From positions 1 through 64,000 of the forward strand of contig NZ_JAPVQY010000006.1 in the NCBI RefSeq assembly GCF_027257875.1: DNA of 64,000 nt. The letters are read 5' to 3'. A model generated the notes under the pieces. That model worked only from the letters and a program-made list of their open reading frames with translations, was not told the origin of the DNA and ran no database searches. The position numbers were made by a program, and so were the translations under genes. The first letter of the stretch is position 1; every line of letters starts with the position of its first letter. Source of the DNA: Burkholderia sp. IMCC1007. GTDB lineage: Bacteria; Pseudomonadota; Gammaproteobacteria; Burkholderiales; Burkholderiaceae. Positions 40,882 to 63,940 of this stretch are shown here, piece after piece.

Positions 40882-40922
40882 TTGCGCCACTTTGCGTCAT
40901 CAAACAGGCCGGAGCGAAATTG
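40882..40922 (+). promoter_or_regulatory. Tripartite regulatory element of the GMC-isomerase promoter
   Basis: TTGCGCC-N3-TTGCGTC-N15-GCGAAATTG. The last block overlaps a -35-like TTGTCA (40920-40925); the -10 is weak (GAAGAT at 40943 with 17-bp spacing). It ends 152 bp before the GMC start. Same spacing as the four elements at 49467-49507, 52552-52595, 54121-54161 and 63692-63735. Confidence 0.65.
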
Positions 40923-41074
40923 TCAGAACAGATTCGGCCCCGGAAGATATTTGCTGGCGTCTGAAGGCGGTGGGCGGCTCGATGGATTGAAGCGCAGCCG
41001 ATTCGGCACGGACCGAATGGATGCTCGCTCCGGCACAGCGCGCGCGCCGCATCGCATTACCGAGTACAAGGAAA

Positions 41075-42745
41075 ATGACTGATCGAGACACTAAGTCAGT
41101 GGACTACATCGTTGTCGGCGGGGGATCGACCGGTTGCGTGGTCGCCGCGCGCCTCAGCGAAGACGAAGGCGCAAGCGTCGCGTTGCTCGAGGAAGGGCCA
41201 TGGGACCGCAGCCCATATATCCATATCCCCGGCGCCTACTACAAGACTGCACAAGGTCCGCTCCTCAAGCGCATCCCGTGGCATCCGACCGAGGGCCAAG
41301 CGCGTACCGAAATGCCGACGATGGTGCAGGCCAGCGTCCTTGGCGGCGGAAGCTCCGTGAACGCGATGATCTACATACGTGGCGTTCCATCGGACTACGA
41401 CCAATGGCGAGATTCCGGTGCGACCGGGTGGGGCTTCGATGACGTCCTGCCCTACTTCAAGCGCTCGGAAGACAACGAGCGGTTCTGCAACGACGTCCAC
41501 GGCATCGGCGGCCCGTTGCGCGTGTCCGACATCCCGCATATTCATCCATTGACCAAGGCATGGCTCAAGGCCTGTCAGCAATCCGGCCTGCCGTACAACG
41601 AAGATTTCAATAGCGGGCAGCCGGCCGGCTGCGGTCTTTATCAAATTACCGCCCGCGATGGCCGTCGCAGCAGCGCTGCCGTTGCATACATTCATCCGGC
41701 ATTGAATCGACCCAACCTGACCGTCTGTACCGGCGTGCGTGTCACGAGAATACTCATCAAAAACGGCCGTGCCGTTGGTGTCGAATTCCTGCGGAACGGA
41801 CAAATCGAGCAGATGCGAGCAAATCGCGAAGTCATCGTTTCGGCGGGCGCGCTCAGTACCCCGAAGCTGCTGATGCTGTCCGGAATCGGGCCATCCGCCG
41901 GGTTGCAAAGGCACGGAATTGCCGTCGAGCAGGACCTCCCGGGCGTGGGCAGGAATCTGCAGGACCACATCGAAATTTCGCTCGTCTACCAGTTGAACGG
42001 ACCGTACAGCTATGACAAATACAAGAAGCCGCACTGGAAAGCGCTTGCCGGCCTGAACTATCTGTTGTTCAGAAGCGGGCCGGCCGTGTCCAACTTGATC
42101 GAGGGCGGCGCGTTCTGGTGGGGCGACAAGGAAGCATCAACGCCTGACATTCAATATTTTCTCGTGGTCGGCGCCGGGATCGAGGAAGGCGTCGACAGCG
42201 TGCCGGGCGGCAACGGCTGCACCATCAATCTCGGACAGATTCGTCCTCGCTCACGCGGCTTCGTCGAGCTGTCAAGCCCCGATCCGATGGATGTTCCTCG
42301 AGTCTTCCCCGAGTACTTCAGCGATCCGTACGACCTCGAAGCGGTGGTCGACGGTTGCGAAAAGGCGATCGACATCATGGGACAGTCCGCTATCAGAAAG
42401 TACATCGCACAACGAATCGTACCGGGTAGACAGGCAGCAAGTCGCGACGAATTGAGGAAATTTGTCCAGCAGGACGCGCATGCAGCGCTTCACCCGTGCG
42501 GGACTTGCCGTATGGGCACCGATAGCGATTCAGTCGTTGACCCTTCGCTACGCGTACACGGTATCGATGGACTGAGAGTGGCCGATGCTTCCATCATGCC
42601 GAACATCATTTCGGGCAATCTCAACTCCGTCTGCATCATGATCGGCGAAAAAGCAGCTGACCTCATTTTGGGCAAAGCGCCGCTGACGCGCATCAAGCAT
42701 GCATCCGTACCGATCGATTCCGAGCCGTCTCAAGTAGCGTCGTGA
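41075..42745 (+). CDS. GMC-family FAD oxidoreductase (choline-dehydrogenase-like)
   Basis: A 556-residue flavoenzyme. The dinucleotide motif is YIVVGGGSTGCVVAARL near the N-terminus. The GMC signatures SVLGGGSSVNAMIYIRG and SAGALSTPKLLMLSGIGP are clear, and the catalytic region is HPCGTCRMG plus NIISGNLNSVCIMIGEK near the C-terminus. It oxidises an alcohol or sugar hydroxyl and has no signal peptide. The ATG at 41075 follows AAGGA; an upstream ATG (41021) adds 18 unlike residues. A TIM-barrel isomerase follows after 50 bp in the same unit. Its promoter element places it in the sugar/polyol regulon of 49-63 kb. Confidence 0.92.
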   Translation: MTDRDTKSVDYIVVGGGSTGCVVAARLSEDEGASVALLEEGPWDRSPYIHIPGAYYKTAQGPLLKRIPWHPTEGQARTEMPTMVQASVLGGGSSVNAMIYIRGVPSDYDQWRDSGATGWGFDDVLPYFKRSEDNERFCNDVHGIGGPLRVSDIPHIHPLTKAWLKACQQSGLPYNEDFNSGQPAGCGLYQITARDGRRSSAAVAYIHPALNRPNLTVCTGVRVTRILIKNGRAVGVEFLRNGQIEQMRANREVIVSAGALSTPKLLMLSGIGPSAGLQRHGIAVEQDLPGVGRNLQDHIEISLVYQLNGPYSYDKYKKPHWKALAGLNYLLFRSGPAVSNLIEGGAFWWGDKEASTPDIQYFLVVGAGIEEGVDSVPGGNGCTINLGQIRPRSRGFVELSSPDPMDVPRVFPEYFSDPYDLEAVVDGCEKAIDIMGQSAIRKYIAQRIVPGRQAASRDELRKFVQQDAHAALHPCGTCRMGTDSDSVVDPSLRVHGIDGLRVADASIMPNIISGNLNSVCIMIGEKAADLILGKAPLTRIKHASVPIDSEPSQVAS

Positions 42746-42795
42746 TCCTGCGCTTGAGCAGCACAATCGTTCCGTTCCTGACTGGATAATTGAAA

Positions 42796-43683
42796 ATGGC
42801 CGCACAAAGCAAAGCGAATGCGTTGATCTTTCATACCACTGTCTCGAGGTTTTCCAACCTGATCACCGACCTCGACACAATCGCCGCAATCGGGTTCGAC
42901 GGCATCGAGCTGGGTGCGGACAAGCTGGAAGCGTACCTCGCGTCGGGCTACGGCCCCGAGGACCTGAAAGCGCTGCTTGAAGGCATCTATGTGCCCGGAA
43001 TGGGATTTCTGATCGATATCGAGCGGCAAGGCCAGCAGGCATCGGCGATGTACGCGCGTGCCGATGAGTTGTTCGAATTGGCAACGCTGTCCGGCGCGCA
43101 AGGTGTGCAGGTACTGACCGGGCCGGTCGACGTTCAATCGGTCGTCGAATGGACGCAAAACGGGAGGACAGACCGTTATGCCGGCGTACTCGGCCTGCCG
43201 CATGCGCGGCAAATCGCGGCCACCGCGAAAAATCTCGCTCGTCTGGCCGACATGGCCGCCGAGCGCGGCCTGGTGCTGTACCTGGAAGCGCTGTCGTGGG
43301 CGCCTATCAACGGCATCGACAAATCGATCCAGCTGATTGATGCGGCCGGTCGCGACAACGTGAAAATCGTCATCGACTACTGGCACTGCCACACGTCCGG
43401 CGTGACGCCCGACGGCATCGCGAAGCTGGATTCGCGCATCATTTATGGCGTTCATGTGTGTGATTCGCTCCCTTTCCCCGGCGGAATTCCGGACGAACGG
43501 GTGCTCCGCGATGTACCGACCGGAGAAGGTGTAATCGACCTGCGGCAATGGACCGATGCAGTCAAGGCAACCGGCTATCGGGGATGGTGGAGTTGCGAGT
43601 TGTTCTGCAGAAAGCAGCAGCAACAGAACGCGGCCACCGTTGCCGCGCAGCTCAAGCGCCTGATGGCGCGCCTCGTTGCGTAA
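42796..43683 (+). CDS. Sugar phosphate isomerase/epimerase-type TIM-barrel protein
   Basis: A 295-residue AP-endonuclease-2/xylose-isomerase-like TIM barrel. Acidic and histidine residues expected at the metal site are present: IELGADKLE, LYLEALSW, IDYWHCHTSG, YGVHVCDS and a final WWSCELF. Such proteins isomerise or epimerise sugars, inosose or hydroxypyruvate-like compounds. The ATG at 42796 was preferred to a TTG 6 bp upstream. It lies 50 bp after the GMC oxidoreductase gene and should act on the oxidised product. The substrate is unknown. Confidence 0.88.
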   Translation: MAAQSKANALIFHTTVSRFSNLITDLDTIAAIGFDGIELGADKLEAYLASGYGPEDLKALLEGIYVPGMGFLIDIERQGQQASAMYARADELFELATLSGAQGVQVLTGPVDVQSVVEWTQNGRTDRYAGVLGLPHARQIAATAKNLARLADMAAERGLVLYLEALSWAPINGIDKSIQLIDAAGRDNVKIVIDYWHCHTSGVTPDGIAKLDSRIIYGVHVCDSLPFPGGIPDERVLRDVPTGEGVIDLRQWTDAVKATGYRGWWSCELFCRKQQQQNAATVAAQLKRLMARLVA

Positions 43684-43839
43684 CCGACCCAGCGTGGCGC
43701 CCGTCGCGCCGCTATTCAGCGGGGCGTCGCGGTCCAATCGCGGGCCGCACATCGTCCGGTTTGGTCGGTCACGCCCGTCAGTGCACCGTTCGGCTGTGAC
43801 GTTCACCGCACGCGCCAGCGCGCTCATCGAGGGTGCCCC

Positions 43840-43862
43840 GGGTGGCGAATTTTGCATGAACA
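43840..43862 (+). repeat. 23-bp direct repeat, copy 2
   Basis: Identical to 40775-40797 over 23 bases. It lies in the gap between the TIM-barrel gene and the hydrolase gene, about 80 bp upstream of the hydrolase start. Confidence 0.85.
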
Positions 43863-43943
43863 ATGTCCGGTCTGCCCTCTGCAATTGTCGACAAGAGCCG
43901 TATAAATTCGGCCCATGTCTGCAATCGTCGGAGCGACGCCGTT

Positions 43944-44774
43944 ATGCCATTCCCGTCCCGTCTGGGCCATCCGCATTACTTTCCGACGCGAAAGGGCCGC
44001 TGCCCGGTCAGCTGGTTCGGCCGCGCGCTCGCGGCCGTCGCGTTCACGGTGACGTTCGCAAGCGGTCACACGATCGCGGCCGCAGCGCCGGCGGTACGCA
44101 ACATCGTGCTCGTCCATGGCGCGTTCGCCGACGGGTCGAGCTGGCAGCCGGTTATCACCAGGCTGCAGCACATGGGTTACCACGTGACGGCCGTGCAGAA
44201 TCCGCTCACTTCCCTCGACGATGACGTTGCCGCGACCGAGAACGTGCTGCGCCGACAAACCGGAGACGTGCTGCTGGTAGGCCATTCGTGGGCCGGTGCA
44301 GTAATTACGCAAGCCGGCGATGCCGCCAACGTGAAGGGCCTTGTGTACCTGTCGGCACTGGTTCCGGACGACGGTGAGTCGGTCGACGACCTGCTGCACG
44401 GCCTCGACGCGCCGATGACGGGCCTGTCACCAGACGCCCGAGGACTGGTATGGCTGGACGATGCCCGCCAGTTCCAGCGCGTCATGGCGGGAGATCTTCC
44501 TTTTGAACAGGTCGAGGCGCTGACCTCGACTCAACAGCCGATCGCGACCGCCTGTTTCACCGGCAAGGTGCGGCATGCGGCCTGGCATGACAAGCCCCGT
44601 TGGTATCTGCGAACGACCGGCGACAACGCGCTCAAGGAAACCGTGCAGCAGGCCATCGCCCAGCGAATCGGGGCAACCGTAACGACCATTCGCTCCAGTC
44701 ACATGTCGATGCTGTCTCACCCCGACGACGTCGCGAGACTGATCGATCGGGCCGCACGAACGGTTCTGCAATAA
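43944..44774 (+). CDS. Alpha/beta hydrolase, secreted
   Basis: A 276-residue alpha/beta hydrolase with a predicted export signal (hydrophobic ALAAVAFTVTFASG, cleavage near IAAAAP at about 50). The oxyanion region is VLVHGAFADGSSW, the nucleophile elbow is GHSWAG and the C-terminal histidine is in SSHMSMLSHP. The shape resembles salicylate-esterase/hydroxynitrile-lyase-like secreted hydrolases. The start at 43944 gives a basic N-region before the hydrophobic core. An azoreductase and a YciI gene follow closely on the same strand. Confidence 0.88.
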   Translation: MPFPSRLGHPHYFPTRKGRCPVSWFGRALAAVAFTVTFASGHTIAAAAPAVRNIVLVHGAFADGSSWQPVITRLQHMGYHVTAVQNPLTSLDDDVAATENVLRRQTGDVLLVGHSWAGAVITQAGDAANVKGLVYLSALVPDDGESVDDLLHGLDAPMTGLSPDARGLVWLDDARQFQRVMAGDLPFEQVEALTSTQQPIATACFTGKVRHAAWHDKPRWYLRTTGDNALKETVQQAIAQRIGATVTTIRSSHMSMLSHPDDVARLIDRAARTVLQ

Positions 44775-44824
44775 CGCCCTTCGAATTTCGAAGAAGTTTA
44801 TCTCTTCACCACTGCGAGACTGAA

Positions 44825-45469
44825 ATGAAAATCCTGCATCTCGATTCCAGCATTCTCGACGACAACTCCATCACGCGAGCGCTGTCCGCTGCCGTCGTAG
44901 CCGATTTGCGTGCACGACACCCATCGGCCGAAGTGACCTACCGCGATCTCGTCCGCGACGAAATTGCCCACTTGACCGGACCGATCGCTGCCGGGTTCCG
45001 TGACATCGCGACAGACGAATTCGACGACGATGCAATCCGCGAGCATCGGGTTTCAGAAACGCTGGTGACGGAGTTTCTGGCCAGCGACGTCATTGTCGTC
45101 GGTGCGCCGATGTACAACTTCTCGGTGCCGAGTCAACTGAAAGCATGGCTGGATCGCGTCGCGCAGGCCGGACGAACCTTCAGATACACCGAGCATGGCC
45201 CGGTGGGCCTGGTCACCGACAAATGCGTCGTCGTCGTCTCCGCCCGCGGCGGGTTTTATGCGGAAGGACCGCTGGTTCGCATGGATTTCCAGGAAAACTA
45301 TCTCGAGCGTTTCTTCGGTTTCCTGGGTGTAGCCGATGTCAGGTTCGTCCGTGCCGAGGGGGCATCGAAAGGCCAGCCGGTGCGGGACGAAGGTATCGCG
45401 CGCGCCCGAGCCGCCATCGCCGACGTACTCGCCAGCGTACAGGCGTCCGATGCACAGCCCGTCAAGTAA
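44825..45469 (+). CDS. azoR: FMN-dependent NADH-azoreductase
   Basis: A 214-residue flavodoxin-fold protein of the AzoR/AcpD family, which reduces quinones and azo compounds. Family marks are MKILHLDSSILDDNSITR (FMN phosphate loop), GAPMYNFSVPSQLKAWLD and VVSARGGFY. The start at 44825 follows GAGACTGAA and lies 50 bp after the hydrolase stop. A YciI-like gene begins 12 bp after its stop, so the three probably form one small detoxification operon. Confidence 0.92.
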   Translation: MKILHLDSSILDDNSITRALSAAVVADLRARHPSAEVTYRDLVRDEIAHLTGPIAAGFRDIATDEFDDDAIREHRVSETLVTEFLASDVIVVGAPMYNFSVPSQLKAWLDRVAQAGRTFRYTEHGPVGLVTDKCVVVVSARGGFYAEGPLVRMDFQENYLERFFGFLGVADVRFVRAEGASKGQPVRDEGIARARAAIADVLASVQASDAQPVK

Positions 45470-45481
45470 CAGGAGTCCTTC

Positions 45482-45790: not shown

Positions 45791-45858
45791 CTTCCGCCGC
45801 GCCCGTCGAGCGGCCCTCGCGCAAGCATCCGGAACCGTCGCGAGACAAGGTCGACCGT

Positions 45859-47016: not shown

Positions 47017-47128
47017 GCCGTGACACGCGTGAACAGATGAATCGCGGGCGCCGTCCCGACGTCGACGCCCACGTTCCGGTATCGGCGTGACGACGAGGTG
47101 CGATCCAAGCGCACGACCATCCCCGCGT

Positions 47129-48142: not shown

Positions 48143-48151
48143 CGTTTCGCC

Positions 48152-49189: not shown

Positions 49190-49606
49190 AGCAGGGCTCC
49201 CTTGTATGAGGTGCAAATTTCGCGACGACGGCCGCCGAGCCCGCACGAATCCGCGCGATACGGTCGTCAGGGTCGATACGGTCGATGCAGCCGGCGGGTT
49301 TCACTTGCAAGACGCTCGGCGGACTGCATGCCGGCATGCTCTCCATAGAAAATTGTCCGGGCAAGTTCGCTGTTCGCCATTTTGCGACGCACAGCGAAGC
49401 AGATCGCGCGGCGGTCTGCGCATCGCGTGCGGCGAGATATCCCGACATACCCGTTGCGCCTCCCGGTAGCGTCATCGTGCGTCTCGAAACGGACAATCGC
49501 GAAATTGCGCACGTCAATTTGCCTTCCGATACTCGCCGGGCGCTCATGCATAGCCACGCACGAGCGGGAACCGGCGAAGGTCGATGTCATCTGAGGAGAA
49601 TGGATT
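49190..49606. other. Divergent control region, GH3 genes / sugar-binding protein
   Basis: No gene. It holds the tripartite element at 49467-49507 for the binding-protein gene. A degenerate mirror copy near 49215-49252 (AAATTTCGC, 16 nt, CCCGCAC) faces the GH3 genes but is very close to their start. Confidence 0.5.
49467..49507 (+). promoter_or_regulatory. Tripartite regulatory element of the sugar-binding-protein promoter
   Basis: TAGCGTC-N3-GTGCGTC-N15-GCGAAATTG. The last block runs into a -35-like TTGCGC (49505-49510); exactly 17 bp later GATACT (49528-49533) serves as -10. The element ends 99 bp before the GTG start at 49607. Confidence 0.7.
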
Positions 49607-50884
49607 GTGAAGGCAAAAACAAGATTGCGGCGTATTTCGGCACGGGCGGTCGCATCGACCGTCGCGAGCTTGTCCATGGTCGGCATGGCCGGCGCACAAA
49701 CGCAAACGGTCGAGGTCGTCCATCAATGGACCTCCAGCAGCGAAGCCTATGCGCTCCAGGCGCTCAAGGACGCGTTGCAGAAGAAGGGGATCGGATGGAA
49801 AGACAGCGCGATCGCCGGCAACGACGGCGCCAATCAACAACAGGCGCTGCAGGCGCGGCTGGCCGCCGGAAGCGCGCCGGCAGCGGCGCAGGCCCAGCCG
49901 CAGCTGCTTTTTTCGTATGCCGAACAAAACGAGCTCACGAATCTCGACAGTCTCGCGAAGGCCGGCAACTGGGACAAGCTGATCGCCCCCGAGCTGATTC
50001 CTTACGTGAGGTACAAGAACGACTGGTATGGCGTTCCGGTCAACGAGCACCGCGAGAACATGTTCTGGATCAACGCCAAGATCCTGCAGAAGTACGGCGG
50101 CAAGGTCCCGACCACCTGGGAAGAATTCAACGCGCTGGCCGAGCGCATGAAGAAGGACGGCATCATCCCGGTCGCGCTCGGCGGCGAGGACTGGCAGGAA
50201 GCGGAGATCTTCAGCGATCTCGCCATCGGCATCGGCGGCCCCGCCTTTTACAAGAAGGCGATCATCGATCACGATCCTGCGACGATCCAGGGCCCCACCA
50301 TGCTCAAGGTATTCGATCAATTGCGCAAGATCATCGGCTTCACGGATCCGAACCGGGCCGGTCGCGACTGGAACGTGGCAACGCAAATGGTCATCGACGG
50401 CAAGGCAGCGATGCAGATCCATGCGGACTGGGCAAAGGGCGAGTTCCTTCGCGCGGGCAAGAAGCCGGGCATCGACTTCGTCTGTGCGGCGACGCCGGGA
50501 AGCGGTCACGCATTCGTGTGGGTCGTCGACACAATGACGTTCTTCAAACAGAAGAATCCCGCCGCAGCGGCCAACCAGGCGACGCTCGCCAATCTGGCCA
50601 TGAGCTCCGACGTGCAGGAGAACTTCAATCTGCGCAAAGGTTCGATCCCCGCGCGGCTCGATGTGCCGCAATCGAAATTCGACGACTGCGCCAAGCTGAA
50701 TTTCGCCGACCGTGCCGCAGCCGCGAAATCCGGCGCAGTCGTCCCGTCGTTCATCGAGAATGCCGCATTGGAACGTGACATTCGCGCGTCATTCGTCGAC
50801 GTGATCACGCAATTCGTGAACACCCCGTCGATGACTTCCGCCACTGCTGTCAAGAAGCTGGCAACCGCAGCAAAGAACAACTGA
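49607..50884 (+). CDS. Carbohydrate ABC transporter substrate-binding protein
   Basis: A 425-residue periplasmic family 1 sugar-binding protein starting at GTG with GAGGAG 9 nt upstream. A signal peptide (ending VGMAGAQ, about 1-31) precedes VEVVHQWTSSSEAYALQALK. Family features include YGVPVNEHRENMFWINAKIL, TTWEEFNALAERMKKDG and AMQIHADWAKGEF. Its partners, two permeases and an ATPase, are 10 kb away at 60600-63548; the shared promoter element supports the pairing. The ligand could be a sugar, polyol or glycoside. Confidence 0.93.
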   Translation: MKAKTRLRRISARAVASTVASLSMVGMAGAQTQTVEVVHQWTSSSEAYALQALKDALQKKGIGWKDSAIAGNDGANQQQALQARLAAGSAPAAAQAQPQLLFSYAEQNELTNLDSLAKAGNWDKLIAPELIPYVRYKNDWYGVPVNEHRENMFWINAKILQKYGGKVPTTWEEFNALAERMKKDGIIPVALGGEDWQEAEIFSDLAIGIGGPAFYKKAIIDHDPATIQGPTMLKVFDQLRKIIGFTDPNRAGRDWNVATQMVIDGKAAMQIHADWAKGEFLRAGKKPGIDFVCAATPGSGHAFVWVVDTMTFFKQKNPAAAANQATLANLAMSSDVQENFNLRKGSIPARLDVPQSKFDDCAKLNFADRAAAAKSGAVVPSFIENAALERDIRASFVDVITQFVNTPSMTSATAVKKLATAAKNN

Positions 50885-52551: not shown

Positions 52552-52595
52552 GCTCAATTTCGCAAAGACACAATTTGTGTCGCACTACGACGCAC
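52552..52595 (-). promoter_or_regulatory. Tripartite regulatory element of the porin promoter
   Basis: On the minus strand: GTGCGTC-N3-GTGCGAC-N15-GCGAAATTG, continuing into -35-like TTGAGC, then 17 bp, then -10 AATACT (plus-strand 52529-52534). An extra inverted repeat GACACAA-N-TTGTGTC (52567-52581) fills the spacer of this copy only, so a second regulator may act here. Confidence 0.72.
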
Positions 52596-54120: not shown

Positions 54121-54161
54121 CAATTTCGCATCCACGTCGAAGCCGACGCGACATGACGCAC
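54121..54161 (-). promoter_or_regulatory. Tripartite regulatory element of the HisD-like gene promoter
   Basis: On the minus strand: GTGCGTC-N3-TCGCGTC-N15-GCGAAATTG, with -35-like TTGTGT and a weak -10 GAAAAT (plus-strand 54095-54100) at 17-bp spacing. It ends 115 bp before the GTG start at 54005. Confidence 0.68.
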
Positions 54162-54278: not shown

Positions 54279-54331
54279 TTGACATCGCCATTTTGGGCGC
54301 GCAGCATTTCGCCAACTTATACGTATAAGTT
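54279..54331 (+). promoter_or_regulatory. Promoter and LacI-type operator of the ThuA-TPP-GMC operon
   Basis: A consensus -35 TTGACA (54279-54284), 17 bp, then a poor -10 CAGCAT (54302-54307). The perfect 18-bp palindrome AACTTATACGTATAAGTT (54314-54331), with the central CpG typical of LacI-family operators, begins where transcription should start. AAGGAG and the ThuA ATG follow. This is standard repressor geometry; the LacI gene at 58548-59645 is the obvious candidate. Confidence 0.7.
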
Positions 54332-54353: not shown

Positions 54354-55019
54354 ATGACTCGAGTTCTCCATCTGTACGGCGGCTGGCCGGGGCACTACCC
54401 GTATGAAGTCGCCGCATGGGCGCGCGGACTGTTCGACGAACTGGGCTGGGAGGTCGAAGGTTCGACCGACATCTTCACGCTCGATCGCGATCTGTCCGCC
54501 TTCGATTTGATCGTGATCGGCTGGAACAACGCCGTCACGACCGAGACGCTGACCGCGTCCCAGGAAAAGCATCTGCTGGACGCGGTCGAGAACGGCACGG
54601 GTCTCGCCGCATGGCATGGCGCCGCCGCGGCGTTTCGCGCAAGCCTTCGCTATCACATGGTGCTCGGCGGGTCGTTCATCGAGCATCCTGCCGGCGAGGG
54701 CTATCCGCATCCGTACATGGTCAACGTGATCGATCACGACCATCCGGTCACGCACGGCGTCGAAGACTTCGAGGTCCGTTCGGAGCAGTACTACATGCAG
54801 GTCGATCCGAACAACCACGTGCTGGCCGAAACGACTTTCGATGGCAAGCCGTTCCCGTGGCTGGCCGGCAATCGCAGCCCGGTCGCATGGGTCAAGCAGT
54901 GGGGGCGCGGTCGCGTGTTCTACCACTCGATCGGCCACGACGTCGGCAACCTGTCCGACATCAACGTTCGCCGCCTCACGATGCAAGGCCTGCAATGGGC
55001 CGCGCGAGCGGCTGCGTAA
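54354..55019 (+). CDS. ThuA-like domain protein
   Basis: A 221-residue ThuA (glutamine-amidotransferase-like fold) protein. Conserved segments are [49 protein letters not shown] and [15 protein letters not shown]. ThuA proteins occur with sugar 3-dehydrogenases and ABC sugar importers and are needed for trehalose or maltitol use in rhizobia, probably acting on 3-keto sugars. The start follows AAGGAG. It is the first gene of an operon with a TPP enzyme (74 bp downstream) and a GMC oxidoreductase. Confidence 0.9.
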
Positions 55020-55093
55020 CGCAGTCAGTGAAGTCCCGCGCGGGCCATCGTTGTCGCGCGCGGATGTCCTCAAATCCTAGTCAGGATAGAAAA

Positions 55094-56881
55094 ATGGCAA
55101 AGCTTACCGGAAGTCAAATCGTCGCCCAGACGTTGAAGAACTACGGTGTCGAATACGTCGCCGGCATTCCCGGTCACGGCATCTGGACGCTGACGGATGC
55201 GTTCCTCGAGAAGGACTCGGAGATTCGCTTCATCCAGGTGTTTCACGAGCAAAGCGCGGTGCATCTGGCCGACGGCTACTACCGCGTGTCGGGCAAGCCG
55301 ATGGCGGCAGTCACGTCGATCGGCGCAGGCGCGAGCAACACGGTCATCGGGATGGCAACGGCCTTCACCGATTCGACGAGCGTCATGCTCATCACCGGCG
55401 GGCCGCCCACGCACATGCGCGGTCACGGGCTGCTTCAGGAACTCGAACGCTACGTCGACAACGATTTTCCGAAGATCGCCGAGGCCGTGTCCAAGCGCCA
55501 TTGGGTGGCACAGCGCGTCGAGGAGCTGCCGTTCATCATGCATCGCGCATTCAGCTCGATGCTGACCGGCCGCCCCGGACCGGTTCACGTCGAGATTCCG
55601 ATGGACACGCAGGCCGAGGCCGCGGAAGTCACGCTGCACCAGCTCGAGGAACGCGTGCCGCTCGGCAAGGTGTATCCGGATCCTGTCGCCGTCGCCAAGG
55701 CGGCCGACGTGCTTCGGCAGGCCAGGCGCCCGGTGATGGTCATCGGCGGCGGCGTCATCACCGGCGAAGCGGCCGCGGAAGTGCTTGCGCTCGCCGAGAA
55801 GTGGCAGATTCCGGTCGTCACCACCTGGAACGGCAAGAGCGGTTTCCCCGAAGATCACACGCTGTTCGCGGGCAGTGTCGGCCAAACCGGCACGATGTGC
55901 GGCAACAAGGTCGCGTCGAGCGCGGACGTGATCCTCGCGGTCGGCTGCCGTTTCACCGACTGGTCGTCGTCGAGCTACGCGAAAGGCGTCACGTTCTCGA
56001 TTCCGCCCGGCAAGCTGATCCATATCGATATCGATCCGCACGAGATCGGCAAGAACTATCCGGTCGCCGTCGGCATCGTCGCCGACGCCAAATACGCGCT
56101 CGCGCACATCGTCGAGGCGCTCGAAGGCGATTCGGCCGACCGTGGCGAATATCTGGCCGAGGTCGCCGCGCACAAGGCGGAATGGGAAGCCAAGCTGGCC
56201 ACGCGCCGCGATTCCGACCGCTTCCCGTTCACGTCGCAACGGCCGCTCGGCGCGCTGCGCAAGATCTTCCCGCGCGACACCATCGTGGTGGTTGGCTCGG
56301 GCAATACCCAGGGCGCGGTCAAACAGACCTTCCCGGTCTACACCCCGCGTACCCACCTGACCTCCGGCGGCTTTTCGTCGATGGGCTGGGCGGTGCCCGC
56401 GGCCATCGGGGCGAAGCTCGCGAAGCCGGACAGCCCGGTGGTCTGCATTCTCGGTGACGGCGACTTCCTGATGACGTCGCAGGAAATCGCGATTTGCGTC
56501 ACCAACAACCTGCCGGTGATCTTCATCGTCCAGAACAACGCCGGGTATATGTCGATTCGCGGCGGCCAGCGCAAGCAGACGAGCCGCCATATCGGTACCG
56601 AGTTCAACTATCCGGACGGACGCCCGTACTCGCCCGACTTCGAGGCAGTCGGCAAGGCGTTCGGTCTCAAGTCGTGGCGCGTGAACAGCAATGACGAACT
56701 CGAGCCGATTCTCCAGCAGGCGCTTGAAAGCAACGAGCCGTGCCTGATCGAGATTCCGACGGATCGCGACGCGGCCGGCCCGTGGGTGCCGGGCTGGTGG
56801 GATTTCCCGATTCCGGCCTATATCGACGACGAGCGACAGGAAGAATACGCACAATTCCGCAACTCAGAGCAACATCTGTAA
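55094..56881 (+). CDS. Thiamine-pyrophosphate-dependent enzyme, acetolactate-synthase-like
   Basis: A 595-residue enzyme with the three-domain POX/ALS plan. The activating glutamate is in VFHEQSAVHLADGY (about residue 52). The central Rossmann-like domain has VMVIGGGVITGEAA, and the TPP-Mg motif is GDGDFLMTSQEIAICVTNNL (near 458-477). It cleaves or joins carbon-carbon bonds next to a carbonyl. It is not an obvious biosynthetic ALS (no IlvN neighbour), and the cyclohexanetrione hydrolase IolD and sulfoacetaldehyde acetyltransferase share only the general plan. It sits between ThuA and GMC genes, so a keto-sugar or keto-polyol ligand is inferred. Confidence 0.9.
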   Translation: MAKLTGSQIVAQTLKNYGVEYVAGIPGHGIWTLTDAFLEKDSEIRFIQVFHEQSAVHLADGYYRVSGKPMAAVTSIGAGASNTVIGMATAFTDSTSVMLITGGPPTHMRGHGLLQELERYVDNDFPKIAEAVSKRHWVAQRVEELPFIMHRAFSSMLTGRPGPVHVEIPMDTQAEAAEVTLHQLEERVPLGKVYPDPVAVAKAADVLRQARRPVMVIGGGVITGEAAAEVLALAEKWQIPVVTTWNGKSGFPEDHTLFAGSVGQTGTMCGNKVASSADVILAVGCRFTDWSSSSYAKGVTFSIPPGKLIHIDIDPHEIGKNYPVAVGIVADAKYALAHIVEALEGDSADRGEYLAEVAAHKAEWEAKLATRRDSDRFPFTSQRPLGALRKIFPRDTIVVVGSGNTQGAVKQTFPVYTPRTHLTSGGFSSMGWAVPAAIGAKLAKPDSPVVCILGDGDFLMTSQEIAICVTNNLPVIFIVQNNAGYMSIRGGQRKQTSRHIGTEFNYPDGRPYSPDFEAVGKAFGLKSWRVNSNDELEPILQQALESNEPCLIEIPTDRDAAGPWVPGWWDFPIPAYIDDERQEEYAQFRNSEQHL

Positions 56882-56893
56882 GGTAGTCAGCGC

Positions 56894-58498
56894 ATGAGCG
56901 ATGCAACGCTTGTTCATCGTCCGGCGTCCGATCTGTCCAGCTTCGCGCCGGTTCTCCGGCGCGAAGTCCCGACGGTCGTGCCCGGCAGCGATGGAATCAT
57001 TACCTGCGACGTGGTCATCGTGGGATCCGGCATGGGCGGCTCGAGTTTCGCGCAGGGCATCTCGGGTCACGGCCTCGACGTGCTCATCGTCGAGCGTGGC
57101 GATTTCCTGCCTCGTGAAATCCAGAATTGGCAGGCCGAGGCCGTATTTCGCGAAGGACGCTACCGCAACGCGGAGTCGTGGATCGACGACGCCGGGAAGC
57201 CGTTTTCACCCGGGGTCTTCTACTACGTCGGCGGCAACACGAAGGTCTTCGGTGCCATGCTTCCACGGTTCAGGGAAGCCGATTTCGGCACGATTCAGCA
57301 CGCCGAAGGAATCTCGCCCGCGTGGCCGATCACTTACGCCGACATGGAGCCGTACTACGCCGCCGCGGAGCGGCTTTACAACGTCCATGGCGCGAGCGGC
57401 AAGGATCCGACCGATCCGTGGCGCTCCGGCGACTATCCGTTTCCCGCGCTGGAACATGACCCTGCGTTGCGGCCGCTCGCTGCGGCGATGCGTGCGCAAG
57501 GGCTTCGTCCGTTCGTGATGCCGGCGGCCGTCAACTACGGCCGCGAACGGCCGTGCGTGCTCTGCTCGACCTGCGACGGCTATCCATGCCTGGTCGACGC
57601 GAAGGGCGATGCGGAAGTGTCCGTACTGCGGCCGCTCGTCGGCGGCGGCGGCGCGCGGCTGATGGTGCGCACCCGTATCGATCGTCTCGTGATGTCGGCC
57701 GACGGCACGCGCATCGAGGAGGCGCTCGGCGTTCGCGACGGGCAGCCGGTTCGCATCCGCGCGAAGCGGTTCGTCCTCGCGTGCGGCGCGGTGAACTCGG
57801 CAGCCCTTCTGCTGCGATCGGCCGATCGTGCGCATCCGGCCGGTGTCGGCAACCGTTCGGGGATGCTCGGCCGGAACTATATGGTTCACAACAGCACGTT
57901 CATGCTCGCCGTCGATCCGCGCCGTGCCAACGACGTGCTCTTCCAGAAAACGCTCGCGATCAACGACTGGTATCTGCGTTCCCCGCAGAACGCATTCCCG
58001 CTCGGTAACGTACAGATGCTCGGCAAGATCCGCGAGCCGATGGTGACGGGCATGTATCCGTGGCTGCCGAAGGCCGTTTCGCGCTACATGACCGACCACA
58101 GCGTCGATCTGTACCTGACCAGCGAGGACCTTCCCGATCCGGAGAACCGCGTCACCGTCGACCCGCAGTCGGGTCGCATCCGCATCAGGTGGCGCGCCAA
58201 CAACCTGCGTGCGCACCGGGCGCTCGTGAAGAAGGCGGTCGCGATGATGCGGCGGGCCGGGTATCCGCTCGTGTTGACGAAGCGCATGGGAATCGCGACC
58301 AACTCGCATCAATGCGGCACGGCCGTGATGGGCAACGACCCGAGCACGAGCGTGCTCGACACGAACTGCAGGCTTCACGACGTGGAGAACGCGTGGATCG
58401 TCGACAGTTCGTGGTTCCCGTCCTCCGCGGCGGTCAACCCGGCGCTCACGATCGCCGCGAATGCGCTTCGTGTGGCCAGCCAGTTCGTCGGTCACTGA
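56894..58498 (+). CDS. GMC-type FAD oxidoreductase with cysteine cluster
   Basis: A 534-residue flavoenzyme, 12 bp after the TPP gene and starting behind AAGGTAGTCAGC. FAD motif VVIVGSGMGGSSFAQG is at about 40-55, then YVGGNTKVFGAMLPRFRE and the C-terminal catalytic NSHQCGTAVMGNDPS and SSAAVNPALTIAANALR. In the middle (about 222-233) lies CVLCSTCDGYPC, a cysteine spacing reported in GMC dehydrogenases that use an Fe-S cluster to pass electrons to a cytochrome or quinone. No signal peptide is present. It differs strongly from the GMC enzyme at 41075. Oxidation of a sugar or cyclitol hydroxyl is inferred from context. Confidence 0.9.
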   Translation: MSDATLVHRPASDLSSFAPVLRREVPTVVPGSDGIITCDVVIVGSGMGGSSFAQGISGHGLDVLIVERGDFLPREIQNWQAEAVFREGRYRNAESWIDDAGKPFSPGVFYYVGGNTKVFGAMLPRFREADFGTIQHAEGISPAWPITYADMEPYYAAAERLYNVHGASGKDPTDPWRSGDYPFPALEHDPALRPLAAAMRAQGLRPFVMPAAVNYGRERPCVLCSTCDGYPCLVDAKGDAEVSVLRPLVGGGGARLMVRTRIDRLVMSADGTRIEEALGVRDGQPVRIRAKRFVLACGAVNSAALLLRSADRAHPAGVGNRSGMLGRNYMVHNSTFMLAVDPRRANDVLFQKTLAINDWYLRSPQNAFPLGNVQMLGKIREPMVTGMYPWLPKAVSRYMTDHSVDLYLTSEDLPDPENRVTVDPQSGRIRIRWRANNLRAHRALVKKAVAMMRRAGYPLVLTKRMGIATNSHQCGTAVMGNDPSTSVLDTNCRLHDVENAWIVDSSWFPSSAAVNPALTIAANALRVASQFVGH

Positions 58499-58547
58499 AG
58501 CGAAGCCTGTCCATACGCCGCGATACACCGCGATACGCCGGCCGCGC

Positions 58548-59645
58548 CTATCTTGCCGCGGCCGGCGCCTGCGTCGTCGACCGCACCACCAGCTCCGTCG
58601 GCAGGAGCACCCTGGGCACGCGCGACTTGCGGGAAGCGGGGCCACTGAGGAGTTCGCTGAGAAGTTGCGCGGCCTGACGGCCTTTCTCGATCAGCGGCTG
58701 ATGGATGGTCGTGAGCCCTGCGCCGGCTGCTTCCGGTATATCGTCGAAGCCGATCACGGAGAGGCACTCGGGCACCGCCACGCCGCGTTCACGCGCGGCC
58801 TGCACGAGCGCGAGCGCCATCACGTCCGACGTCGCCGCCACTGCCGTCAAGCCCGTATGCTGCAGGATCTGTTCGGCCGCCCAGATGCCCGATGCACGAT
58901 CGAAGCCGCCGGCCTCGACCATCAACAGGTCGTCAAAGCCGAGCCCCGCCGCTTCGGCCGCGCGCAGATAGCCGTCGATGCGGGCTCGCACGACGTTTTC
59001 CGTGGCTTCCTGGAAGCGCTGCCTCGTGACGACGCCCTTGAAGCCATCCGGACGCAGCCGGTCGGCCACGATGCCGATCCGCCGGTGGCCGAGCTCGATC
59101 AGGTGCCGCATCTGGACGACGGCGGACTGCAGATCGTCGATCCCGACGAACGGCACCTTGTCGATGATCGGTGCGTCGACGATCACGACCGGGATACCCT
59201 GCCGGCGCGCGACCTCGATGACCGGGTAGCGATCCGGCAGCGAGTACGCGATCAGTCCGTCGACGAACCCGCGTACCGCGAGGCTGCCGTTCTCGGCATC
59301 GCCGGCATGATTCGCCAGATCCTTCTGCAGCGGGAAAAGCGCGAGCGCGACGTTCGCGAGTTCGCTGATTTCAGCGATGCCGCGCAGCAGGCAGGTGGTT
59401 GCCGGATCGGCGAATGCGTAAGGCAACTCGTCCATGATCATCAGGCCGACGGCACCGACCCGCCCGGAGCGCAGACTGCGCCCACGTACGTTGGGCCCGG
59501 GATAGCCGAGTTTTTTCGCGACGGCGAAAATATGCTCGCGCTGCGCCTCGGAGATTTCCGACGGCTTGTTGTACGCATAGGAGACCGCGGGCTGAGAGAC
59601 GCCGGCGGCCAATGCGACGTCCTTCATTGATACGGCACGCTTCAT
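58548..59645 (-). CDS. LacI-family transcriptional regulator
   Basis: A 365-residue LacI/GalR regulator. The HTH and hinge are at the N-terminus (MKDVALAAGVSQPAVSYAYN, then KKLGYPGPNVRGRSLRSG). The sugar-binding domain follows, with VDGLIAYSLPDRYPV, VGIDDLQSAVVQMRHLIELG and SVIGFDDIPEAAGAGLTTI. The start at 59645 gives the standard N-terminus. It converges on the GMC gene and precedes the phosphatase and ABC genes on the minus strand. Its probable operator is the palindrome at 54314-54331. Confidence 0.92.
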   Translation of the reverse strand: MKRAVSMKDVALAAGVSQPAVSYAYNKPSEISEAQREHIFAVAKKLGYPGPNVRGRSLRSGRVGAVGLMIMDELPYAFADPATTCLLRGIAEISELANVALALFPLQKDLANHAGDAENGSLAVRGFVDGLIAYSLPDRYPVIEVARRQGIPVVIVDAPIIDKVPFVGIDDLQSAVVQMRHLIELGHRRIGIVADRLRPDGFKGVVTRQRFQEATENVVRARIDGYLRAAEAAGLGFDDLLMVEAGGFDRASGIWAAEQILQHTGLTAVAATSDVMALALVQAARERGVAVPECLSVIGFDDIPEAAGAGLTTIHQPLIEKGRQAAQLLSELLSGPASRKSRVPRVLLPTELVVRSTTQAPAAAR

Positions 59646-59710
59646 CGATGGGAAGGCATCCGCCTGTGGACTGGCAATGCCGCATTTTACAGGGATACAC
59701 GCCAGATCCT

Positions 59711-60547
59711 TCACGCATTCGATCCGGCCAGCAATGCAATCACGCTCGCATGAAGCGCGCCGCTCGACGCCGCGACGACATCGCCCGCCGAACGCTCGCT
59801 CAAACGTTGTCCGCGCCAGTCCGTCATCCGGCCGCCGGCCGCTTCGACGATCGGGACGATCGGCAGGAAATCGTGGGGGGCGAGCCCCGATTCGACGACG
59901 AGGTCGCACCGCCCGGTGGCCAGTGCCGCGTAATTGAAGCAATCGCCGCCATATCGATGGACGGCGACACGCGCGACGAGCCGCGCGTACGCCGGCTGCT
60001 CGCCGGGCGTTAACTTGTCCGGCGTCGTCGTGCACATGCGCGCCGCCGACAGTGGCACAGCCGTGCCGGCAGCCGGCTCGACATGCGTCGCGGCATCGGT
60101 GCTGCTTGCGATCAGCCGCCGTCCGAGGGCCGGCATGTCGATCGCGCCGAGCCATGGCACACCGTCGCATAGTACGCCGACGAGCGTTCCCCATAATGGA
60201 CTGCCCGTCACGAAGGCGCGCGTCCCGTCAAGCGGATCGATGACCCATCTCCGGTGCGTTGCCCCGCCCGCTCGTCCCTCGATCACGCCGAATTCCTCGC
60301 CGACGATGGAATCCAGCGGGTGCCGCGCCTGAATATGGGCGCGTAGTGCCAGCTCGATACGCCTGTCGAGTTCGGTGACGGGCGACGCATCGCGCTTTCG
60401 CGTAATGGCGAGCGTGTCGTGCGCCACGGCAGCGCACAGCGTGCGAGCCAGGTCGCAGAGATCGATCACCGTGTCCCGATAGTATTGTTCGTCGATACTC
60501 GACATCGGTCCCGCCATCGAATGTTCGTCATTCCGCTCAATGTTCAT
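59711..60547 (-). CDS. Inositol-monophosphatase-family phosphatase
   Basis: A 278-residue Mg-dependent phosphatase of the IMPase/histidinol-phosphatase (HisN) family. The metal sites are GEEFG (about 84-88) and WVIDPLDGTRAF (about 101-112). The third motif reads APHDFLPIVPIVEAAGG, with PHD replacing the common WD. Possible starts are 60547, 60517 and 60505; the last has GGCGGGAC just upstream. It lies 52 bp after the ABC ATPase gene in the same direction and could remove phosphate from an imported or intermediate sugar/polyol phosphate. Confidence 0.88.
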   Translation of the reverse strand: MNIERNDEHSMAGPMSSIDEQYYRDTVIDLCDLARTLCAAVAHDTLAITRKRDASPVTELDRRIELALRAHIQARHPLDSIVGEEFGVIEGRAGGATHRRWVIDPLDGTRAFVTGSPLWGTLVGVLCDGVPWLGAIDMPALGRRLIASSTDAATHVEPAAGTAVPLSAARMCTTTPDKLTPGEQPAYARLVARVAVHRYGGDCFNYAALATGRCDLVVESGLAPHDFLPIVPIVEAAGGRMTDWRGQRLSERSAGDVVAASSGALHASVIALLAGSNA

Positions 60548-60599
60548 CGTCCCGAGACGGGCCGGCCGCGCACACCGCGATACCGACCGGCATGTCCCT

Positions 60600-61691
60600 T
60601 CATACGACGCGTTGTTCGGTCGCCGGGTCGAAAATAAGTGCCTTGTCGGCGTTGACGACGAGCTGCATCACGTCCCCGACGCGCCCGACGCCTGGCGCGA
60701 AGCGGGCCATGATCGATTCTCCCGCAACCGACAACAGCACGAAGTTGTCGGCGCCCGTCGGCTCCACGACGTCGACCGTCGCCTGGAAGCTTGCGGACCC
60801 GACGCCTGGCGCGAGCCATTCCGGGCGAACGCCCAGTACGACTTCCCGATCGAGGTAGCATCGTTGCGCGTCGCTGAGCGAGCCCAGCGCGATCTCGAGC
60901 GTGTGCCCGCTGCCGTCGCCGCCGATGAAAACGGCGTGCGTGTCGCCGCCGCGCAGCACGCCGTCCAGGCAGTTCATCGCAGGCGATCCGATGAAGCGCG
61001 CGACGAACAGGTTCGCCGGGCGATCATAAACGTCTTCCGGCGTGCCGATCTGTTGCACCTCGCCGCCCCGCATGACCACGATCTTCGTCGCCAGCGTCAT
61101 CGCTTCGATCTGGTCGTGCGTCACGTAGACCGTCGTCGTGCCGACACGCTGGTGCAGCTTCTTGATTTCCGCGCGCATTTCCGTGCGCAGTTTCGCGTCG
61201 AGATTCGACAGCGGCTCGTCGAACAGGAATATCTTGGGTTCCCGCACCATCGCGCGCCCCATTGCAACGCGCTGGCGCTGGCCACCCGACAGCTGACTGG
61301 GCTTGCGATCGAGCAACTGATCGAGCTGCAGGATCGCCGCGACCCGCTTGACCGCCTCCTCCTGCTCGGATCGCGATGCCCCACGCACGCGCATCCCGAA
61401 TGTCAGGTTCTTGCGCACCGTCATCGTCGGGTAAAGCGCATACGACTGAAACACCATCGCGATATCGCGCTTCGCGGATTCGACGTCGTTGACGACCGAG
61501 CCGTCGATGACGATCTCGCCGTCGTTGACCGGTTCGAGTCCCGCGATCGCGTTCAGCAATGTCGACTTCCCGCAGCCGGACGGACCGAGCAGCACGAGGA
61601 ACTCGCCGTCGTCGGCATCGATATTGATTTCCTTGAGGCAAGCAACGCTGCCGTAGTTCTTGCGGACATCGCGAATATGGAGAGAAGCCAT
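60600..61691 (-). CDS. Sugar ABC transporter ATPase (MalK/UgpC type)
   Basis: A 363-residue nucleotide-binding subunit. Walker A is [10 protein letters not shown]-loop MVFQSYALYPTMTV, signature SQLSGGQRQRVAMGRA, Walker B IFLFDEPLSNLD and switch VYVTHDQIEAMTL. A C-terminal TOBE/OB regulatory domain follows (LGVRPEWLAPG, then DVVEPTGADNFVLLSV). It ends the permease-permease-ATPase run, 2 bp after the second permease, and should power the importer that uses the binding protein at 49607. Confidence 0.95.
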   Translation of the reverse strand: MASLHIRDVRKNYGSVACLKEINIDADDGEFLVLLGPSGCGKSTLLNAIAGLEPVNDGEIVIDGSVVNDVESAKRDIAMVFQSYALYPTMTVRKNLTFGMRVRGASRSEQEEAVKRVAAILQLDQLLDRKPSQLSGGQRQRVAMGRAMVREPKIFLFDEPLSNLDAKLRTEMRAEIKKLHQRVGTTTVYVTHDQIEAMTLATKIVVMRGGEVQQIGTPEDVYDRPANLFVARFIGSPAMNCLDGVLRGGDTHAVFIGGDGSGHTLEIALGSLSDAQRCYLDREVVLGVRPEWLAPGVGSASFQATVDVVEPTGADNFVLLSVAGESIMARFAPGVGRVGDVMQLVVNADKALIFDPATEQRVV

Positions 61692-61693
61692 GA

Positions 61694-62611
61694 TTACCCC
61701 TTGACCGCGCCGGCCATCAAGCCGCGCACGAAATACTTGCCCGCCAGGAAATAAATGACGAGCGTTGGAAGAGCAGCCAGCAATGCACCGGCCATATGGA
61801 CGTTGTACGGACGTTCGCCCGCGCTCGCGCTCACCATGTTGTTCAGCGCAACCATGATGGGCGTGTTCTGACCGCTCGTGAACGACACGCCGAACAGGAA
61901 GTCATTCCAGATCGACGTGAACTGCCAGATCACGGTGACGACGATCATCGGTACCGACAGCGGCAGGATGATGTATGCAAAAGTCGTCCAGAAACCCGCT
62001 CCGTCGACCCGCGCCGCCTTCACGAGGTCCTGTGGCACCGTCATGAAGTAATTGCGAAAGAACATCGTCGTGAATGGCAGGCCGTAGACCGTATGAACGA
62101 GCACGAGACCTGCAAGACTGCCTGACAAGCCGAGTACGCCCAGCGTCTTCGCAAGCGGTATCAACACGGATTGATATGGCGTGAAGGTGCCGAACAGGAT
62201 CACCGCGTAGACGAACTTCGACCCTCTGAAATTGAACTTCGTCAACGCGTAGCCGTTCAATGCGCCAAGAAGCGTGGACAACAAGACGGCAGGTACGACG
62301 ATCAGCACGGTTCGCACGTAGAACCCGTGCAGCCCCACGCAGTCGATGCCGACGCACGCGTTTTGCCATGCATCGATCCACGGCTGGACCGTGGGCGCGA
62401 GCGGAAAGGACAGAATCGACGTCGACCGGATCTCCGCCATGTCCTTGAACGAAGCGAAGACCATCACGAGCAGCGGCATCACGAAGAAGGCCGCGCTGCC
62501 GGCGAGGACCGCATAGAGCACCGTACGCGCGGCATAGCGCATCGCCGTGCTCGATGGGCGGGACACGCGACGCGCATGCCGGACTGCGTCAGAGACTGTC
62601 GTTGTGTTCAC
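61694..62611 (-). CDS. Sugar ABC transporter permease (MalG type)
   Basis: A 305-residue inner-membrane protein with six hydrophobic segments and the ATPase-contact loop DLVKAARVDGAGFWTTFAYI (the EAA loop, here KAARVDGAG). It ends LAGKYFVRGLMAGAVKG, the usual MalG-type C-terminus. A cysteine-containing periplasmic loop (WQNACVGIDCVGLHGFYV) between helices 1 and 2 is unusual and may form a disulfide. The start overlaps the first permease by 23 bp, and the stop is 2 bp before the ATPase start. Confidence 0.94.
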   Translation of the reverse strand: MNTTTVSDAVRHARRVSRPSSTAMRYAARTVLYAVLAGSAAFFVMPLLVMVFASFKDMAEIRSTSILSFPLAPTVQPWIDAWQNACVGIDCVGLHGFYVRTVLIVVPAVLLSTLLGALNGYALTKFNFRGSKFVYAVILFGTFTPYQSVLIPLAKTLGVLGLSGSLAGLVLVHTVYGLPFTTMFFRNYFMTVPQDLVKAARVDGAGFWTTFAYIILPLSVPMIVVTVIWQFTSIWNDFLFGVSFTSGQNTPIMVALNNMVSASAGERPYNVHMAGALLAALPTLVIYFLAGKYFVRGLMAGAVKG

Positions 62612-63548
62612 GCTTGAACTCCGAGTAGAGATACGGGACGGTAAGGACGATCACGACGAGCAGAATCATGACGGAGCTGGCGGCGCCCTGTGCGAGCTGG
62701 CCGCGACTGAACGTCAGGTTGTACATGAACGTCGTCGGCAGGTCGCTCGAGAAACCCGGCCCGCCGTTCGTCAGCGCAACGACAAGGTCGAAAGACCGCA
62801 CCGCCTGGTAGATCAGAATCACTACGACGCTGAACACGGACGCGCGCAGCATCGGGATGATGATGGTCAGATAGATGCGCAGGGTTCCGGCGCCTTCCAT
62901 GCGTGCCGCCTTGATGATTTCGCCGTCGATCCCGCGCAGGCCCGCCAGGAAGATCGCCATCACGAAGCCCGCGGTTTGCCAGACGGCGGCGACGACAAGC
63001 GTATAGACCGCCATCTGCGGGTCGATTAGCCAGTTCACATGGACGCCGGTAATGCCAAGATCCTGCAGCAGCTTTTCCAGTCCGAGGCCAGGATTCAGGA
63101 TCCACTTCCAAGCCGTGCCGGTGACGATCAACGACACCGCCATCGGATACAGATAGATCATCCGGAACGCCCCCTCGCCCCGTACTTTCTGGTCGAGGAA
63201 AATCGCGAGCAGCAACCCCATCACGAGCGAGATCAGCATGAATGCAATCGAGAACAAACCGAGGTTCGTTACCGCGACATTCCATCGATCCGAATCCCAT
63301 AGCCGCGCATACTGCGCAAGACCGACGAAGTCGTAATTCGGCGCGAACTTCGAATTGGTAAACGAGATGACGATCGACCAGCCGATGAACACATAGACGG
63401 CCATCAAAAGTACGACGATACTCGGCGCCAGCGTAAGTGCCGCGGGGCTCGCGCGCAGCCAGCGTCGTCGCTGCCCGACCGCTCCGGCATGGATGCCGCC
63501 TCCTGGGGAAAAAGACATCTCGAATCTCCGTGTGGTTTCTGCTTTCAT
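62589..63548 (-). CDS. Sugar ABC transporter permease (MalF/UgpA type)
   Basis: A 319-residue permease. The first helix is AALTLAPSIVVLLMAVYVFI. The ATPase-contact loop is IIKAARMEGAGTLRIYLTII, and the end is VPYLYSEFKREHNDSL. Start 63548 was chosen because GGAGAGGGGGAG lies immediately upstream; 63575 and 63518 are alternatives. It is first in the importer operon, with the shared tripartite element 144 bp upstream. Confidence 0.93.
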   Translation of the reverse strand: MKAETTRRFEMSFSPGGGIHAGAVGQRRRWLRASPAALTLAPSIVVLLMAVYVFIGWSIVISFTNSKFAPNYDFVGLAQYARLWDSDRWNVAVTNLGLFSIAFMLISLVMGLLLAIFLDQKVRGEGAFRMIYLYPMAVSLIVTGTAWKWILNPGLGLEKLLQDLGITGVHVNWLIDPQMAVYTLVVAAVWQTAGFVMAIFLAGLRGIDGEIIKAARMEGAGTLRIYLTIIIPMLRASVFSVVVILIYQAVRSFDLVVALTNGGPGFSSDLPTTFMYNLTFSRGQLAQGAASSVMILLVVIVLTVPYLYSEFKREHNDSL

Positions 63549-63940
63549 GCGCTCCCCCTCTCCTGATACGGTCACGCGATGCTTGCGGCATCACCGCGAC
63601 GCGTCATGTCCCGATGGTGCCGCTCGTTCCGTGCATGACCGTGTGAGGATCATGCGATCGGTGGCTGGAGTATTTGCCGCTAAAAACACGTGCTCAATTT
63701 CGCGGAGCACGCAAATGAGACGCACAGTGACGCACAAAACGCAGTACACTCGATCATGCGTGAATGCAGCGCGACGGCCCACGCTTCGGATACCGCACCG
63801 ATGCGCTTGAAGCCGTCATTCCTTCGGTTTCCATACGGAAAATCCCGAACGGGAATCGGCGAATCGACGCACGGCCGGCCGCGTTGCGCGCCGGTTCGCC
63901 GTTCGCCGCCGGTCCCTTCGATCACTTCTTCAGAAACAAC
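63549..63940. other. Divergent control region at the right edge
   Basis: No gene visible. It carries the tripartite element at 63692-63735 facing the permease operon; a new gene seems to start at 63941 in the other direction. Confidence 0.5.
63692..63735 (-). promoter_or_regulatory. Tripartite regulatory element of the sugar ABC permease promoter
   Basis: On the minus strand: GTGCGTC-N3-GTGCGTC-N15-GCGAAATTG, running into -35-like TTGAGC, 17 bp, then -10 AATACT (plus-strand 63669-63674). The two 7-mers are perfect direct repeats one helical turn apart. This is the cleanest copy and the best reference for the motif. Confidence 0.75.

Follow-up and report, generated by a model that had tools for sequence, protein, structure and literature searches.

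The stretch analysed here (hereafter the window) comprises 64,000 nucleotides of Burkholderia sp. IMCC1007, positions 1 to 64,000 of contig NZ_JAPVQY010000006.1, and contains a gene cluster for uptake and oxidation in which six promoters share a tripartite sequence element. The units bearing it encode a porin, a solute-binding protein, two permeases with an ATPase, a GMC oxidoreductase with a TIM-barrel isomerase, and a HisD-like dehydrogenase, and a weaker copy faces two genes for family 3 glycoside hydrolases (Table 1). Three regulator genes accompany the cluster, of the AraC/GATR, LacI and XRE types, the last beginning close to the end of the window and continuing beyond it; a further unit, thuA-TPP-GMC2 (TPP, thiamine pyrophosphate), lies beside the LacI-family gene.

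A tripartite element restricted to one gene cluster

The core of the element, GCGNC-N5-GCGNC-N15-GCGAAATTG, has five exact matches in the whole genome (8,566,872 bases in 138 contigs), all lying in the cluster, and the same pattern read backwards has none. An earlier note on this DNA had described two 7-mers, three nucleotides apart, followed after 15 nucleotides by an invariant third block at five promoters, and had taken the arrangement to define a regulon. All five copies were found at those promoters with that spacing, the third block, GCGAAATTG, is identical in every one of them, and the confinement of the exact matches to a single cluster, with none scattered elsewhere, bears the regulon out. 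One of them, element 5, is in addition close to the XRE-type regulator gene, which starts about 0.2 kb further on and is read from the opposite strand.

Allowing up to three mismatches, the window yields eight matches, against a mean of 1.8 in shuffles. Only one further exact GCGAAATTG occurs in the window, at 16585; it is absent from the boxed matches and was rejected as an additional element, reading as the start of another coding frame. The same tolerance applied to the whole genome gives 300 places, compared with 134 when the pattern is read backwards. The exact copies alone are therefore self-evident, and mismatch counts (outside the cluster two places with one mismatch, and 28 with two over the whole genome) say little beyond them, making the genome-wide mismatch scan uninformative as a source of further targets.

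By mismatch count, the sixth copy is one of those 28 places. A matrix built from 25 alphaproteobacterial sites places it, together with the five exact copies, among the top six scores in 80 kb (22.8-37.5 bits), the next-best score being 13.6 bits and the highest in ten shuffles 9.2 bits. The two glycoside hydrolases probably belong to the regulon as well; they had been missed in the original list of targets, of which the five units stand.

Among 65 genomes of the genus the exact pattern is present in three, namely the one studied here and two others, with one match each and of identical sequence. These single matches (L007 and L008, in genomes G024 and G029), of which a two-mismatch version is found at C58:63517 of the present genome, perhaps represent a conserved coding stretch.

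Promoter geometry

The last box of the element overlaps the -35 in all copies, and a hexamer of the form NANNNT follows the TTGNNN exactly 17 bp further on in six of six, as compared with 72 of 1432 TTGs in the window; any other spacer from 10 to 25 bp gives at most one of the six. The claim made earlier, of a -10 at this distance in three copies, was right for those (GATACT, AATACT and AATACT) and turns out to extend to the rest. The -35s preserve TTG alone and the -10s depart from TATAAT, giving them the likely look of promoters that need help. The arrangement expected of sigma70 class II promoters, with a -10 at 16-18 bp from a poor -35 and boxes abutting the -35, is present at six of six, always at 17 bp, and would fit class II activation.

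Table 1. Coordinates of the element copies, their predicted promoter hexamers, and the regulator genes and palindromes discussed in the text
Feature	Position	Strand	Match to core	-35	-10	Genes and remarks
AraC/GATR-type regulator gene	39714-40766	-				DJ-1/PfpI and AraC HTH; rejected as binder
Element 1	40884-40922	+	exact	TTGTCA 40920-40925	GAAGAT 40943-40948	before GMC oxidoreductase (41021-42745) and TIM-barrel isomerase (42790-43683)
Sixth element	49362-49400	-	two mismatches		GAGCAT 49336-49341	faces glycoside hydrolase genes (49246-48152, 48142-47129)
Element 2	49469-49507	+	exact	TTGCGC 49505-49510	GATACT 49528-49533	before sugar-type solute-binding protein (49607-50884)
Element 3	52555-52593	-	exact	TTGAGC 52557-52552	AATACT 52534-52529	before porin (52335-51145)
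Element 4	54121-54159	-	exact	TTGTGT 54123-54118	GAAAAT 54100-54095	before HisD-like dehydrogenase (53975-52719)
Palindrome ACTTATACGTATAAGT	54315-54330					perfect; before thuA-TPP-GMC2 (54354-58498); proposed LacI operator, outside the tripartite regulon
LacI-family regulator gene	58548-59645	-				rejected as element binder
Element 5	63695-63733	-	exact	TTGAGC 63697-63692	AATACT 63674-63669	before ABC (ATP-binding cassette) permease/permease/ATPase unit (63575-60600)
XRE-type regulator gene	from 63941, to contig position 64768	+				275 aa, HTH_26; proposed binder of the element
Second ACTTATACGTATAAGT-like place	contig C95:66774-66789 (L006:6774-6789)					beside amino-acid permease gene

Distribution of the element and of the XRE-type regulator

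The XRE-type protein matches PF13443 (HTH_26) at 26.8 bits, over a Pfam cut-off of 22, with HTH_3 as its only sub-cut-off match, whereas its C-terminal domain of about 200 residues has no family match in either Pfam or NCBIfam; five solved chains, of Cro/C1 type, were found for the protein and align to its helix-turn-helix (HTH) end only. A match to the XRE family is present in 28 of 398 Pseudomonadota genomes, three of which, including the present one, score above 430 bits and the rest between 115 and 197 bits. A degenerate form of the element was found in four of the same 398: in the present genome (four places), just upstream of the XRE ortholog in G1126 and of an XRE paralog in G899, and as a single GC-rich match in G790. 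The backward control of that form gave one match, in G1009.

At 30 loci with XRE relatives, a copy stands just upstream of the regulator in 16 with up to three mismatches and in 14 with up to two, including all 11 loci of family f162 at the stricter limit, which are mutually related and hence not independent and which we judge to be Pseudomonas-like; twenty shuffled patterns gave, in all, two matches at two mismatches and ten at three. With up to one mismatch, GCGAAATTG lies within about 330 bp upstream and points away from the regulator at 19 of the 30 loci, against four for the reverse direction. The protein of the window and an f162 paralog, 32% identical overall, have in common the HTH stretch CRKL.INR.QFNKYL. 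The genes divergent from the paralogs differ. They encode a sodium:alanine symporter in L080 and in L082, the single f162 locus examined with Pfam, and a family 5 binding protein in L095 and three f219 loci, while L088 has a lyase gene in this place and L096 a peptidase-like one; the element therefore follows the regulator and not the targets.

The cluster is conserved in the related genome G358, where the XRE regulator is 84% identical, the HisD-like dehydrogenase 90%, the TPP enzyme 91%, the binding protein 81% and the LacI regulator 74%. Seven copies are present there, of which five are exact, one deviates at a single position and one at two. They precede the HisD-like gene, the porin and the binding protein, the permease unit, in front of which an extra TPP-type gene intervenes, and an open frame with the GMC gene immediately after it; the copy with two mismatches faces a gene of major facilitator superfamily type. 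With a slightly wider pattern, all exact matches in that genome fall on the contig carrying the cluster. A further one-mismatch copy is seen at C46:44062-44100 of G358, about 7 kb beyond the cluster stretch.

More distant relatives of the regulator, up to 45% identical among the matches listed, are encoded on alphaproteobacterial plasmids (142 records, of which 30 were listed and 11 fetched), in clusters that also contain the TPP enzyme, the HisD-like dehydrogenase, the binding protein, permeases, ATPase and GMC enzymes. In ten such loci (251,392 bases), picked by hand from the listing and with XRE relatives of 39-45% identity, there are 22 copies with up to two mismatches, six of them exact, as opposed to two matches in all, both at two mismatches, for twelve shuffled patterns. 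L042, whose regulator is a 33% identical paralog, has no copy within two mismatches. The cluster in L043 is arranged differently from the others, and those in L039, L040 and L041 include a gene for a family 3 glycoside hydrolase that shares 40-51% identity with the pair in the window. These last three clusters also carry an aspartate ammonia-lyase gene. The expectation that the element would be kept at orthologous promoters is thus borne out at matching promoters of both G358 and the alphaproteobacteria.

Box anatomy of the element

Six sites belonging to paralog families f219 and f223, for which the best GCGAAATTG-like match served as sole anchor, score highest for direct boxes at offsets 20, 10, 30 and 0, i.e., they read as four head-to-tail boxes spaced by one helical turn, the last at the predicted -35. 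The window-type element has boxes at 0, 10 and 30, with the third decayed. Since the f162 sites were found through the pattern, their offsets 0, 10 and 30 are conditioned on it, and since box 2 of the window-type sites served to train the box matrix, offset 10 is likewise trained in these. The site L041:12781 was omitted from the site analyses and, from the anatomy and matrix sets, also L109:11936 (two mismatches each) and the three-mismatch matches; L098 was dropped from the paralog anatomy set, its element being too close to one edge of the extracted stretch. The direct repeats one turn apart abutting the -35, on which the earlier note had based its suggestion of a class II type activator, are strengthened by the four boxes and 10-bp pitch of the six paralog sites.

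Candidate regulators and alternative explanations

Three regulators had been put forward as possible binders, of which the XRE-type protein encoded from 63941 fits and the other two do not. An AraC/GATR-type class II activator bound to the element would suit both the position of its gene, divergent from element 1, and the binding of AraC-type activators to direct repeats adjoining the -35. Its relatives, however, occupy 19 loci other than its own, or 18 distinct ones since L010 and L013 coincide, and none of these 18 contains a copy with up to two mismatches; the protein has no match in the 39 kb of G358 that bear the element, and no gene so named occurs in the annotated element-bearing plasmid clusters. 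We rejected it as the binder and consider this explanation very improbable. The present genome has, at C50:84146-84601 (L012), another stretch with 84% identity to residues 186-337 of this AraC/GATR protein. The LacI-family regulator, present in two of 398 sampled family genomes (the present one and G358), was kept together with the cluster in G358, yet as a binder of the element it is equally improbable and was rejected too: the element is not palindromic, as a LacI-type operator with its central CG would be, and LacI is absent near the element in the annotated plasmid clusters, apart from an unlike one about 8 kb from the XRE gene in L043. It seems to have a palindrome of its own, ACTTATACGTATAAGT, of LacI type, with a central CG, perfect and identical in the present genome and in G358, in both of which it lies before thuA, just after the TTGACA-N17-CAGCAT promoter of thuA-TPP-GMC2. 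With up to two mismatches, ACTTATACGTATAAGT recurs at one other place in the genome, next to an amino-acid permease gene at a distance of 12.5 kb, and its backward control also gives one place. LacI probably binds ACTTATACGTATAAGT, and the thuA-TPP-GMC2 unit, which has no element copy among the best matrix matches, appears to be under its control.

A different question is whether the XRE-type regulator, if it binds, activates. It could instead cover the -35 in the absence of ligand and leave when substrate is present, and the overlap of the last box with the -35 in all copies, together with the fact that many XRE proteins are repressors, would agree with this. The array nevertheless reaches about 30 bp upstream of the -35, from which a simple repressor would gain little, and the promoters it serves are poor (TTG only; GAAGAT, GAAAAT, GAGCAT), unlike the thuA promoter with its TTGACA and downstream palindrome. 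Repression is therefore a considerably less likely alternative; activation is favoured because the array lies upstream of the -35 and the -35 and -10 sequences are poor. An alternative sigma factor recognising conserved -35 and -10 blocks, with the upstream boxes secondary, might account for the strict 17-bp spacing and the identical GCGAAATTG, but the paralog elements preserve GCGAAATTG without an AATACT-type -10 and the presence of the element tracks the XRE gene, so that we give this explanation hardly any weight, even less than the two rejected regulators. The best inference from the sequences is activation by subunits of the XRE-type regulator lying head-to-tail.

Proposed mechanism

We consider it likely that the element is the operator-promoter of the XRE-type regulator, which would activate the six promoters as a phased head-to-tail array. 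The fuller form would be that of the paralogs, in which four boxes of 10 bp (about GCGTCA) share an orientation and a face of the helix. In the window, boxes 1 and 2 would have been kept, box 3 lost and box 4, GCGAAATTG, fused with the -35 at its TTG, the -10 following exactly 17 bp on. Subunits of the regulator may occupy the boxes head-to-tail in a single orientation, the last contacting region 4 of sigma70 at the -35, and the C-terminal domain presumably senses a ligand that triggers activation. Six otherwise weak promoters would in this way be activated for the uptake and oxidation of one substrate, probably sugar-like. The sequences show the element, its confinement to the cluster, its association with this regulator family, the 10-bp array of the paralogs and the geometry of the promoters; binding, a head-to-tail oligomer, activation over repression and a ligand are what we infer.

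Several observations weigh against this reading. Cro/C1-type proteins usually bind palindromes and often repress. The core of the array consists of direct repeats, and ahead of it, at offset -13, the f162 sites show an inverted half-site that is also visible, weakly, in those of the alphaproteobacteria; a dimer may therefore nucleate binding at that half-site. The association with the regulator has gaps: 14 of the 30 XRE loci lack a copy with up to three mismatches upstream of the regulator (L085 matches only downstream of the gene), 11 of the 30 lack GCGAAATTG within one mismatch, L040 stands out among the ten alphaproteobacterial loci in having no copy with up to two mismatches, and the ortholog genome G809 has no degenerate-form match, only two- and three-mismatch copies. 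Finally, a matrix from the 11 f162 sites does not single out the copies in the window: its best score there is 12.6 bits, shuffles reach 19.6 bits, and four of the six copies are within its top 14.

Targets and substrate

Among solved structures, the one nearest to the HisD-like dehydrogenase is HpsN. According to the HpsN report (PMC11382572), His126 is specific to HpsN and is the key histidine that marks dehydrogenases of 2,3-dihydroxypropane-1-sulfonate (DHPS). The alignment places a leucine (in GKYPL) at the position of His126, and DHPS is not supported as the substrate from this gene. GKYPL differs both from the motif of HpsN and from that usual in HisD, and the enzyme perhaps has a third specificity.

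Comparison with known systems

Literature searches directed at the motif, at the cluster and at regulators of this type gave no description of this regulon among the matches listed. A regulator with its regulon is a known kind of system; the operator architecture, for a Cro/C1 fold, and its spread appear to be new. More broadly, we tentatively propose, with somewhat less than even confidence, a widespread and undescribed-looking XRE branch (HTH_26 with a C-terminal domain lacking a family match) that would bind as a head-to-tail array on four 10-bp boxes, the last in the -35, as a Cro/C1-fold counterpart of BldC, providing a common operator code for many uptake systems across Proteobacteria. 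The analysis assigns a candidate operator, regulator and promoter geometry to a regulator family for which no description was found, in a form transferable to many genomes; it presents an example in which a fold associated chiefly with palindromes would bind direct repeats, possibly in the manner of a filament, and it points out a conserved pathway of uptake and oxidation.

With the XRE family at large the regulator shares an HTH_26 match above the cut-off, a gene divergent from a target and an HTH that matches solved Cro/C1 chains, but it differs in its core operator, made of direct repeats at 10-bp pitch as opposed to the usual palindrome, and in a C-terminal domain matching no Pfam or NCBIfam family. 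PhoB/OmpR-type response regulators act as class II activators from direct repeats upstream of and abutting the -35, an arrangement seen here as well, although the linked regulator has an HTH of Cro/C1 type and Pfam finds no receiver domain in it. A further parallel is BldC, a MerR-like protein of Streptomyces, which according to its description (PMC5859096) binds 9-bp directional direct repeats head-to-tail, in variable number and with up to four subunits. The XRE-type regulator is not a member of that family, Pfam giving HTH_26 and a sub-cut-off HTH_3 only and no MerR-like winged HTH, and BldC as described there has a winged HTH in 68 residues with no sensor domain and a head-to-tail arrangement that is established, whereas it is predicted here. 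What the two would nevertheless have in common is an operator of direct repeats about one helical turn apart (9 bp in BldC, 10 bp here) and in variable number.

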